The translations under genes and the position numbers were made by a program. The notes under the pieces are model-generated. The model saw nothing but the letters and a program-made list of their open reading frames with translations, was not told the DNA's origin and did not search any database. A DNA stretch of 64,000 nucleotides from Pirellulales bacterium. GTDB taxonomy: Bacteria > Planctomycetota > Planctomycetia > Pirellulales > Lacipirellulaceae. This document shows, piece after piece, positions 53,447 to 56,346 of this stretch (position 1 is the first letter of the stretch; the number at the start of each line of letters is the position of its first letter). Where the stretch lies: NCBI GenBank assembly GCA_019636345.1, contig JAHBXQ010000012.1:1-64000 (forward strand). Reading direction: 5' to 3'.

Positions 53447-53547
53447 CCGCCGATGCCGCCCGCAGCGTCCGCGAACAGGACGAACTCGACGAGGCCCAAT
53501 TCGCCGAATGGGCGAAACAGGCCAGCCGCCTGCCGGGGGAGCAGATG
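53447..53547 (+). pseudogene. Possible frameshifted C-terminal remnant of the preceding gene
   Basis: After the stop at 53446 a shifted frame (minus one) reads PALTADAARSVREQDELDEA then QFAEWAKQASRLPGEQ with strong GC-rich third positions, as in real coding DNA of this genome. It could be the former C-terminus of the protein of 52277-53446, moved out of frame by a one- or two-base change near 53400, or an independent remnant. It runs straight into the 260-bp direct repeat at 53548, which would have cut it off. Confidence 0.4.
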
Positions 53548-53807
53548 GAGGCGAGCGCCGAACCCACGCCCGCGCCTCTCCTCAGGCGCCGGGCATGCGC
53601 GTCTTCGGTTCGCCATGGCGCGCGGCGGAGGATCGCCGTGGGCATGCCGCCTTGCTTCCCGCGCGGCAATCTCGACGCCGGCTTCTTCCAGGCCCGGCAG
53701 GGCCGGCAGGTTGTCGCCAGGGCCGCGAGGCCCTGGTTGGCGGTTGGAGACAATTCGCAGCCCCAACCGGGGCGACAGAAGCGCGGCCGTTCTCAGGTCG
53801 ACGCGCG
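53548..53807. repeat. About 260-bp direct repeat, copy A
   Basis: The segment starting gaggcgagcgccg and running to tcgacgcgc matches 55892-56157 at about 85 percent by eye, including gacgccggcttcttccaggc, a central ccagggccgcgaggccctgg palindrome and gcgacagaagcgcggccg. Both copies are in the same orientation, 2.3 kb apart. A related string with GLAALATTCRP readable on the minus strand appears in both; I treat it as non-coding repetitive DNA, as in other planctomycetes. Confidence 0.8.
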
Positions 53808-53941
53808 CGGCGGGTGCGCACAACTCGTTGCCTCGCCAAGAACTGCACGATACGTTGAGGGCACGGCAGACCTCCGTCGCGACCCGCAGCCAACTGGTCT
53901 CAGCCACGTTGCCGCCAGGGCTCTGCCAAGGGGCTTACCCA

Positions 53942-54006
53942 CAGGTTTTGTGGATAAGCAGGCCATGCCGGGGCTTATCTGCGTTTTTGTGTCGAATAAC
54001 AAGTTC
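53942..54006. repeat. 66-bp repeat, copy 1
   Basis: caggttttgtggataagcag ... gtgtcgaataacaagttc. It is almost identical to 54659-54724 (the second copy is one base longer). It contains an internal inverted pair ggataagc/gcttatc. It lies just before the small membrane-protein gene. Confidence 0.85.
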
Positions 54007-54050
54007 GGCGGCAGCGAACGATTACTGATTTGCCAACACCACACAAAACT

Positions 54051-54275
54051 ATGAAGCCCATCGCTCACTGGATACCCGCAGTATTTTGCGCGTTCCTATC
54101 ACTACTCGCGCTCTCGATGCAGATCCGCTCTGACTCGGGAGATTGGAAGCCGGCATTCTATTGTTTCCTGCCCATGTGCTTCTTTTTTGTCGGCTCAACG
54201 ACATCACAGATGCAGCGGGAGATTCGGGAGTTGCGGAAGCAGCTTGCCGAGTTGCAGCAGAAGCGAGTTGATTGA
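54051..54275 (+). CDS. Small cassette-type membrane protein
   Basis: A 74-residue protein from the ATG at 54051 (a TTG seven codons upstream in frame is also possible). It has two hydrophobic stretches (AVFCAFLSLLALSMQI and AFYCFLPMCFFFVGSTTS) and a C-terminal coiled coil (QMQREIRELRKQLAELQQKR). Its base composition (about 50 percent G+C) is well below its surroundings. The stop is 9 bases before the attC-like site, exactly the arrangement of an integron gene cassette. No family is recognised; proteins of this kind are frequent in cassette arrays. Confidence 0.7.
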   Translation: MKPIAHWIPAVFCAFLSLLALSMQIRSDSGDWKPAFYCFLPMCFFFVGSTTSQMQREIRELRKQLAELQQKRVD

Positions 54276-54284
54276 CATGTTGCC

Positions 54285-54377
54285 GCCTAACCATACGCTG
54301 CAGCGAACCTAGCGGGAGCGTCGCAGTTGCAATCGTCACGTCCCGTGCGCCGGGTCGCTGAACTTGGGTCGTTAGGA
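54285..54377 (+). other. attC-like integron recombination site 1
   Basis: A 93-bp imperfect palindrome bounded by GCCTAAC (54285-54291) and GTTAGGA (54371-54377), matching the R'' (RYYYAAC) and R' (GTTRRRY, last base off) ends of attC sites. Inside, cagcgaacc on the left pairs with the complement of gggtcgctg on the right, with mismatched extra bases, as in the L''/L' boxes. It follows a short gene by 9 bases and precedes another by 7 bases. Confidence 0.75.
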
Positions 54378-54384
54378 GACTTTG

Positions 54385-54507
54385 GTGCTTCGCCTGCTCA
54401 TCATCGCAATAGTCTTGATCCTCACCGGCTGCGACGATTCGCTTGATCGGCCAATCAGCTTTGCTCTTCCTGACGGATTCAGCGGACCGTTTGTGGTCAT
54501 TGAGCAT
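54385..54507 (+). pseudogene. Truncated lipoprotein gene interrupted by an inverted-repeat element
   Basis: The GTG at 54385, 7 bases after the attC-like site, starts LRLLIIAIVLILTGCDDSLD, a clean lipoprotein signal with lipobox LTGC, followed by RPISFALPDGFSGPFVVIEH. After His/Pro the frame enters the repeated GGTGGAAAAGGGG element at 54508 and then translates repeat DNA up to a stop at 54717. It looks like a second cassette gene truncated by the insertion. No function can be named. Confidence 0.6.
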
Positions 54508-54662
54508 CCTGGGGTGGAAAAGGGGGTGGAAAAGGGGACAGGTCCATTTCATCCACTCCATCTTCCACTTCCTCAGCCCGTGCGGGACGGGGGAATGTTC
54601 GAAAAGCCACCGACGCCTGTCCGCTGTGCTAATCTGGACCTGTCCCCTTTTCCATCCCCAGG
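54508..54662. repeat. Inverted-repeat element with aaaaggggacagg arms
   Basis: The left arm (54508-54545) is cctgggg plus a duplicated gtggaaaaggg unit ending gacaggtcc; the right arm (54636-54662) is its reverse complement, ggacctgtccccttttccat and ccccagg. About 90 bp of loop DNA lies between them. Palindromes with the gtggaaaaggggacaggtcc core occur repeatedly in planctomycete genomes and may be moved by REP-associated transposases. This copy interrupts the lipoprotein gene. Confidence 0.75.
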
Positions 54663-54724
54663 TTTTGTGGATAAGCAGGCCATGCCGGGACTTATCGGCA
54701 TTGTTTGTGTCGAATAACAAGTTC
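54659..54724. repeat. 66-bp repeat, copy 2
   Basis: Nearly identical to 53942-54006, starting caggttttgtggataagcag. It overlaps the last bases of the inverted-repeat element and ends 22 bases before the DUF1559 gene. Confidence 0.85.
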
Positions 54725-54745
54725 TGCCACTAACCATAGAGAGCA

Positions 54746-55741
54746 ATGATGATGCGACGCGGGTGGACATTGGTTGAACTGTTGGTCTCGCTGGGCGTCA
54801 TAGCGATTATCATGGCCATTGCGCTCCCAGCAATACAATCTGCCCGTGAATCAGCGCGACGTCAACAGTGCCAGAATAACCTCCGGCAGATCTTGATCGC
54901 AACTCAATCGCATCATGCTGCCACCAACGCGTTGCCATCGCTTTACAATGGCGCCTCCCTAACCTACCCCCTCGCGGAATGGGATCTGTTTCATATGCAT
55001 TCTTGGCGAGTCTCTCTCCTTCCCTATATGGAGCAATCCGCGTTGAAGGTACGGTTGAATTGGGATGCCCTTGCAACCGACGACGAGAACTTGCCAGTTG
55101 CTCAAACCGTCGTCTCAACGTACATTTGCCCAAGCGGTGGAAATCCAATGGACATGGGGTGGGGACTAAAGCACGGTTCAATTGGTATTCCACCCAGCAC
55201 TATCACTGAACAAGATCGCTATCGCGTTGTCCGTAGCGATTACGACGCGATGGCTGGGATTCAGGTGCTGCCCAATCCTCTGCCACCGAATACAAACGTT
55301 CTTTCCGTCGATCACGTTCGCTGGGGAATCTGGGGCTGGCCTGTGTTCGAAACGAAGACGACGTCGGGCTCACGTTTAGCTCGGTATCGGCAGGGAATGT
55401 TCCGTGACGTTACCGATGGGCTATCACACACTCTAGCGGTCGTTGAACGGGCGGGAAAACCGAAAGACTATCTCAATGGTAAGCTCAATGTTACTAGCGA
55501 AAACCCCAATGCGGACTATCCGGGCCAGGTGGGATGGTCGGCCAGCAACACCTTTGTCTGGTCAATCAATAACGACACCGTAGGTGTGAATGAATCAAAT
55601 TCAAAAGGCATCTATTCCTTTCACCGTGGTGGCGCAAATGTTGGAATTGCCGATGGTTCAGTCCGTTTTCTATCAGACGCAACGAACTTCGAGACGTTGG
55701 TAAAGCTTTACGGCAGGTCTGACGGTGGGTTGCCGGAATGA
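54746..55741 (+). CDS. DUF1559 protein with prepilin-type N-terminus
   Basis: A 331-residue protein. It opens with the prepilin signal MMMRRGWTLVELLVSLGVIA, where cleavage after Gly6 would leave a methylated residue and Glu at +5, then a long hydrophobic helix. The DUF1559 pattern follows: AIQSARESARRQQCQNNLRQ, HSWRVSLLPYMEQSAL, CPSGGNP, DVTDGLSHTLAVVERAG and FHRGGANVGIADGSVRFLSD near the end. The fold is pseudopilin-like; the family is massively expanded in planctomycetes, and its function is unknown. G+C is near 50 percent, far below the flanks, and an attC-like site follows its stop by 7 bases, so this copy looks like an imported gene cassette. Confidence 0.93.
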   Translation: MMMRRGWTLVELLVSLGVIAIIMAIALPAIQSARESARRQQCQNNLRQILIATQSHHAATNALPSLYNGASLTYPLAEWDLFHMHSWRVSLLPYMEQSALKVRLNWDALATDDENLPVAQTVVSTYICPSGGNPMDMGWGLKHGSIGIPPSTITEQDRYRVVRSDYDAMAGIQVLPNPLPPNTNVLSVDHVRWGIWGWPVFETKTTSGSRLARYRQGMFRDVTDGLSHTLAVVERAGKPKDYLNGKLNVTSENPNADYPGQVGWSASNTFVWSINNDTVGVNESNSKGIYSFHRGGANVGIADGSVRFLSDATNFETLVKLYGRSDGGLPE

Positions 55742-55748
55742 AGACATG

Positions 55749-55850
55749 GCAGTACCAAGCGATGCAACGGAGCCAAAAATGGCGTTCCGCTTCTTTACTG
55801 AAAGCAAGATCACTCGCGCCATTTTCGCCCGCTGATCGCGGCCGTTAGGG
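55749..55850 (+). other. attC-like integron recombination site 2
   Basis: About 100 bp after the DUF1559 stop, ending in GTTAGGG (55844-55850). The left half has accaagcgatgcaacggag and the right half cgcccgctgatcgcggccgt, the usual paired boxes of attC sites found in planctomycete genomes, and aaaaatggcg pairs with cgccatttt in the middle. The left R'' end is degenerate (gtacc for ctaac), so the site may be weak or inactive. Confidence 0.65.
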
Positions 55851-55891
55851 AATCTGCGATCGCCCACGACTTTCGGACAGCGGCAGGACGT

Positions 55892-56157
55892 GAGGCGAGC
55901 GCCGGGCCGAACCCCACGCCCGCGCCTCACCTCAGGCGCCGAGCATGCGCATCTGCGGGTCGCCATGGCGCACGGCGAATGTCCGTCGTCGGCATTCCGC
56001 CTTGCGTCCCGGCGCGGCAATCTCGACGCCGACTTCTTCCAGGCCCGGCAGGGCCGGCAGGTTGTTGCCAGGGCCGCGAGGCCCTGGTGGGCGGTTGAAG
56101 ACAATTCGCAGCCCCGGCCGGGGCGACAGAAGCGCGGCCGTTCTCACGTCGACGCGC
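55892..56157. repeat. About 260-bp direct repeat, copy B
   Basis: Starts gaggcgagcgccggg and runs to tcgacgcgc; second copy of 53548-53807, same orientation. The two copies bracket the low-GC cassette block. From here to the next gene at 56347 nothing coding is seen. Confidence 0.8.
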
Positions 56158-56346
56158 TCGCCGAGGCTGCCTGCGCCGGGCGTCGCTGGCACGTCGCATG
56201 TGCGACGTGTCAAGCGGCCCGATCCGAGGTTCCCGCCCGCGTTCGCTCCCCCCCGATTCTTATAGAAAATGGGCCACCCCTTCGAGTAGAACGGAGTCAG
56301 GCGGCCGCGCTGCACATTCGCCGCAGCGGAAAAGTAGGGGGGCTCT

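Follow-up and report, generated by a model that had tools for sequence, protein, structure and literature searches.

Is a cluster of low-G+C genes bordered by two palindromes the remainder of an integron, and did its DUF1559 gene arrive there as a cassette? The cluster lies in the window, by which we mean the whole 64,000-nucleotide stretch of DNA analysed, a part of contig C12 of an assembly of 15 contigs that is 95.9% complete. An earlier note had proposed an integron-like cassette cluster with two attC-like hairpins and no integrase. The cluster is integron-derived DNA, but its layout is unlike that first reading (Table 1), as it runs from an attI-like site through a small gene, an attC, a gene broken by a MITE, a second attI-like site, and the DUF1559 gene to what is probably a decayed attC. 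The analysis supports a remnant of integron cassettes without an integrase, holding one certain attC. The first reading had missed two attI-like sites, the MITE, a single terminal repeat of a transposon, and direct repeats of ~270 bp on either side. A scan of the window at the Rfam gathering thresholds gave no match.

Table 1. Features of the cluster, in window coordinates
Feature	Position	Strand	Evidence or remark
Left flanking direct repeat D1	53548-53812	+	89% identical to 55892-56163
attI-like site W1	53929-54009	+	Exact core; 12 fetched relatives in 8 genomes
Small cassette gene	54051-54275	+	ATG at 54051; listed 81-aa ORF starts with TTG at 54030
attC1	54285-54377	+	Own scorer 51.5; covariance 33.3 bits; relatives on C3; attCs of the G424 array
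Second cassette gene, MITE-interrupted	54382-54510	+	Frame open to 54717
MITE/REP-like repeat with inverted ends	54511-54663		16 further matches in the same genome, one partial
attI-like site W2, truncated on the left at the MITE	54656-54727	+	Repeat of W1; core match
DUF1559 gene, in cassette position	54746-55741	+	PF07596, 149.7 bits
attC2, probable decayed attC with a defective R''	55749-55850	+	Own scorer 24.5; covariance 6.9 bits
Single IS terminal repeat, rve-type transposase kind	55852-55884	+	Same repeat in family genomes
Right flanking direct repeat D2	55892-56163	+	Pair of D1

The two hairpins

Both sites lie where the earlier note had placed them, starting 9 bases past the stop of the small gene (at 54275) and 7 bases past the stop of the DUF1559 gene. 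Site 1 is, as predicted from its sequence, a genuine attC. It has the boxes R'' (GCCTAAC) and R' (GTTAGGA), and its arms, GCT[G]CAGCG and CGCTGAAC, form 7 of 8 pairs with one extrahelical base. Early pattern scans for attC were too noisy, and a scorer with controls was used instead. This scorer was trained on 17 planctomycete attC sites without the window or the sequence family of site 1, and left-out training sites score 34.9 to 59.1. In the 64-kb window site 1 scores 51.5, followed by its own reverse-strand echo (35.1) and by the next place at 26.0. A covariance model of our own (not that of IntegronFinder), which was built from 14 sites excluding the site 1 family and which is mainly a sequence model, since RNAalifold supplied only the R''/R' pairs and the model has just 6 base pairs, assigns 33.3 bits to site 1 (E = 4.2e-6 over 314,559 bp). 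No other place in the window exceeds 15.5 bits, and seven control loci without arrays peak at 15.0 bits. Site 1 is also 82 to 88% identical to the attCs of an array in G424, a family member with an intact intI, and it has two relatives in its own genome, both on contig C3. Folding of the site as single-stranded DNA gave no support (z = +0.9 and +1.1). Cleavage of attC1 would fall between 54371 and 54372. An attC model for Planctomycetes has been published previously (PMC8352920).

Site 2 retains the L''/L' arms, the extrahelical base, and canonical spacing, but only 3 of 7 positions can pair between its R'' (GCAGTAC) and R' (GTTAGGG). With filters off, the covariance search of 2.9 kb gives it 6.9 bits (E = 0.36), which is not significant. 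Of 406 ORF 3' ends, taken from the window and from nine loci of the same genome, 4 match its score of 24.5 on our own scorer; the top two of those four are attC-like and belong to a different array of this genome (L131, C4:254 kb). Among 600 local Markov sequences, 1 scores as high. Single-stranded folding gave mild support (z = -1.8 and -2.3). Site 2 is at best a probable decayed attC. The claim of two attC-like hairpins is therefore borne out by site 1, which has boxes and arms and stands above background in the covariance search, but not by site 2, which lacks a proper R'' and does not.

attI-like sites and their relatives

The repeats at 53939-54009 and 54656-54727 contain AATAACAAGTT, and in two family genomes the attI stretch next to an intact intI finishes with this core. 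In G424 an attI of what we call A-type lies directly upstream of the intact gene, and in G433 the core GTCTAATAACAAGTT lies upstream of it. We had taken 50-bp direct repeats as a shared leader, a reading that was replaced by attI. Homology and position argue that W1 and W2 are attI sites. In W1 the predicted cut falls between 54003 and 54004, between AATAACAAG and TT; in W2 it would fall between 54721 and 54722.

The 12 fetched relatives of W1 and W2 (W-type) come from G392, G394, G397, G398, G402, G403, G407, and G416. They align up to the core, in which CAAGTT is kept in 10 of the 12, and beyond it all 12 diverge into different genes or sequence. Nine have an attC scoring at least 33 within 5 kb downstream. 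Two W-type sites of G402 adjoin intI remnants; none of the W-type sites seen adjoins an intact intI. A 20-base W-type pattern finds 10 stretches in 84,980 named genomes, every stretch in a record titled Planctomycetota or a known member of that phylum: five fall in named Lacipirellulaceae (three in Adhaeretor mobilis, one in Aeoliella straminimaris, one in Bythopirellula polymerisocia) and five in MAGs. Across 43 family genomes, A-type matches occur in 16 and W-type matches in 16, and 23 genomes have either or both. G424, an assembly of two contigs, has 10 A-type matches at 88 to 100% identity and one full intI over the cut-off; G432 has six such matches, and G409 and the genome of the window have five each. 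The five in our genome are at C4:426.5, C4:317.9, C2:898.1, and C4:254.9 kb, with a weak fifth at C3:21.45 kb.

Around 42 attI-like sites, namely those in fetched loci, which are a subset of the matches and generally the better ones, the position of attC is strongly one-sided. A same-strand attC occurs within 3 kb downstream of 27 of the 42 and upstream of one, W2, and 15 have none within 3 kb downstream. In total there are 43 attCs downstream, 1 upstream, and, once weaker reverse-strand echoes of the same site are removed, 0 antisense. Without the window the figures are 26 of 40 downstream and 0 of 40 upstream, and 123,654 bp of control loci contain no attC. Five of the 26 loci (L067, L174, L176, L177, and L188) supplied training attCs and are not independent.

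An intI or a remnant of one was found beside 5 of the 42 sites (6 are so classed in the motif comparison). Upstream of the cut, TANAAT, which in sequence resembles a -10 element, is present in 22 of 42; these are 22 of the 36 sites without intI or stub, versus 0 of the 6 with one (L061, L067, L130, L139, L175, and L176). It lies at -75 to -77 in 12 of 13 A-type cases and at -85 to -88 in 6 of 9 W-type cases. The motif is missing from 14 sites without intI, W1 and W2 among them, and a promoter scan of 53780-55900 gave 0 sigma-70 sites.

The DUF1559 gene and damage to the cluster

The genes between the palindromes were described as low in G+C, and they are: the DUF1559 gene has a G+C of 0.525 compared with 0.669 for the window, which puts it in the lowest 0.3% of 996-nt windows, while two other DUF1559-like genes of the same genome have values of 0.68 and 0.66. 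The small gene (G+C 0.533) is likewise below the window value and has a weak match to LapA_dom, under its cut-off. The product of the DUF1559 gene has an N-methylation motif of 21.4 bits (cut-off, 21.2). The gene begins 25 bases behind the attI-like cut point of W2, and its best matches lie in other genera (68% in G403 and 62% in G431). The position next to attI, the low G+C, and the matches in other genera fit acquisition from outside, which we consider likely from these sequence features. With 50 of 98 first-look candidates scored, 5 of the 43 genomes, our own included, have matches with an E of 1e-45 or lower, and none of those scored is a second gene in our genome.

That the gene is a cassette, as the earlier note suggested, is plausible rather than proven. 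Among 7 DUF1559-like ORFs from a motif search of 80 loci, a search that missed the known homologues L184 to L186, the attC score behind the gene is highest for that of the window (24.5), followed by homologue L187 (21.9). The further suggestion that integrons spread this family found no support in the flanking stretches inspected for four homologues, which contain neither attI nor attC. We found no description linking DUF1559 with integrons in the open-licence literature.

The second cassette gene has no Pfam match, and by eye its start looks lipoprotein-like. The MITE/REP-like element that interrupts it is ~135 bp long with inverted GGGGACAGGTCCA ends, and its copies are clustered (L040 to L055). 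The idea that the MITE targets attC was dropped, as among 17 copies attC halves were seen near two that lie outside the window (L042 and L049). The IS terminal repeat, of which the window has one copy, abuts attC2; the same repeat lies beside rve-type transposases in L194 and L196, and relatives carry intact-looking elements, which we take to be IS3 family. D1 and D2, ~270 bp each, bracket the cluster and have only three other matches in the genome, all short. When 53540-56170 was compared with the 43 family genomes, with 6 candidates per genome scored, only pieces were matched (attC-like, attI-like, DUF1559, and repeat pieces). The whole region was not among the matches; with site 1 also passing, the outcome is not the one that would count against the earlier note, namely both sites below threshold in a region conserved among relatives.

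Integrase, proposed dispersed platforms, and competing readings

Searching the window with 21 IntI queries gave no intI match at E = 1e-3, and no TIGR02249 match over the cut-off was found in the 95.9% complete assembly. The search for intI elsewhere in the genome, which the earlier note had proposed, gave fragments but no intact gene: an N-terminal fragment at C4:317.7 kb (62% over 42 aa), a C-terminal fragment at C1:504.9 kb (61% over 83 aa), and a further N-terminal fragment at C2:897.9 kb. Thus, an integron remnant without integrase is upheld, with one of its two attCs passing. What the sequences show directly is attC1, an attI family with arrays downstream, and, in this genome, intI as fragments only. 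Contig C3 has canonical attCs with short genes, and attC-like sites also occur on C4, C5, and C1. Larger attC-bearing regions with short genes are found at L059/L060 (C3:11-22 kb), L061, L067, and L131. An intI over the cut-off is present in 9 of the 43 family genomes (that of G392 is interrupted and that of G429 is partial) and in 71 of 392 sampled genomes of the phylum. Planctomycete intI genes and intI pseudogenes have been reported before (PMC2426708).

The cluster resembles a CALIN, defined with IntegronFinder as an attC cluster lacking an integron-integrase and called by default from 2 attC upward in version 2 (PMC9024848), in having attC without nearby intI, low-G+C genes, and other attC clusters in the genome. 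It differs in having one passing and one sub-threshold attC and in having attI-like sites. From the complete integrons of G424 and G433, with which it shares the attI core (and, for G424, sites related to attC1), it differs in having no intI and two attI-like sites instead of one.

Sites called attG are found where cassettes sit at chromosomal places far from intI, and they have only a short core in common. Our sites likewise hold cassettes at chromosomal places distant from intI, but what they have in common, with one another or with intI-linked attI, is ~66 to 80 bp long. The name attG is used in PMC12901181 for genomic sites used by integron integrases. The same source describes delta-attI-type cassettes of class 1 and 2 integrons, which have an attI-derived site behind an array ORF, much as W2 follows the broken gene, and which IntI1 can excise and insert. 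As described there, those cassettes keep mostly 14 to 18 nt of attI1 or attI2, whereas W2 is ~70 bp; in addition, here the MITE removes the junction of gene and W2 and blurs the left end of W2, and dispersed copies lie outside arrays.

According to PMC9024848, IntI recombines attC with attI, the cassettes nearest attI sit by a promoter, the typical integron has a single attI near the integrase, and attI detection in IntegronFinder 2 is limited to class 1, others being poorly described. In the mechanism that we propose, an integron integrase would once have placed cassettes here by recombining folded attC with attI between AATAACAAG and TT. An IntI of the Lacipirellulaceae lineage would have acted at W1 and W2, the intact intI would later have been lost from the genome, and the MITE and the IS would then have damaged the cluster. 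On balance, we read the window as holding a decayed tandem of two modules, each headed by attI, whose likeliest working form was one integrase with several promoter-attI docking platforms, acting beyond the attI beside its own gene. The several-platform form is favored because members of the W1/W2 family are dispersed, in most cases not near an intI, and many have a -10-like motif upstream. The broader proposal is more tentative, and we hold it with a little less than even confidence: Lacipirellulaceae may have a distributed integron, in which promoter-attI platforms across the chromosome, each with its own cassettes, are served in trans by one often-lost integrase, and the window would be a decayed platform pair, one member of which captured a pilin-like DUF1559 gene. 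The dispersed-platform reading is weakened by the presence of an intact intI in only 7 of the 23 site-bearing genomes (versus 2 of the 20 others); by type, the counts are 3 of 16 A-type and 4 of 16 W-type genomes, several assemblies being incomplete. It is further weakened by the lack of an intact intI beside any W-type site seen, by the 15 of 42 sites with no attC within 3 kb downstream, and by the missing -10-like motif in W1 and W2 together with the empty promoter scan.

The same 7 of 23 speaks for ordinary decay, in which an integron once stood at each attI-like copy and lost its intI, leaving that copy as a relic and the window as a plain CALIN-like remnant with no service in trans. Our own copies at C4:317.9 and C2:898.1 adjoin intI N-terminal remnants and so bear 5' stubs, the homology of the C4:426.5 copy extends into that intI stub, and nearly a third of the intI genes in an early survey, as given in PMC2426708, were pseudogenes. 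Decay accounts less well for the -10-like motif, which lies within an upstream stretch common to many sites without intI and unlike that of intI-linked attI, or for the 10 closely similar copies that G424 has alongside a full intI. We regard decay as a possible but somewhat doubtful account. It is improbable that W1 and W2 have nothing to do with attI and are leader or promoter repeats that were copied ahead of genes; in favor of this, they are repeats of ~70 to 80 bp with no intI beside either in the window, but their core is that of attI beside intact intI, homology stops at that core, and attC lies on the downstream side only. Chance palindromes, with no attC at either site and low-G+C genes that came by another route, would suit the unremarkable folding of site 1 and the sub-threshold site 2 but are scarcely credible, because site 1 stands out in both scoring methods and closely related sites occur in real arrays.

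If the several-platform reading is right, scattered attI sites bearing promoters would allow several first cassettes to be captured and expressed at once, cassette clusters that lack intI would not have to be inert remains, and DUF1559-like genes would have a testable route between planctomycetes. No description of dispersed, multicopy attI without intI was found in the titles and abstract beginnings of the open-licence literature.

Two further observations concern intI itself. G402 has two full intI genes with equal scores (C1, 2.05 and 4.12 Mb; L135 and L136), whose adjoining first 200 bases are identical and contain an attI-like end of another sequence, TATAACCAAGTT. Between intI and attI in L061, L130, L139, L140, and L175 there are palindrome-like stretches, ATATGTATAC or variants of it, which might be a control site for intI.
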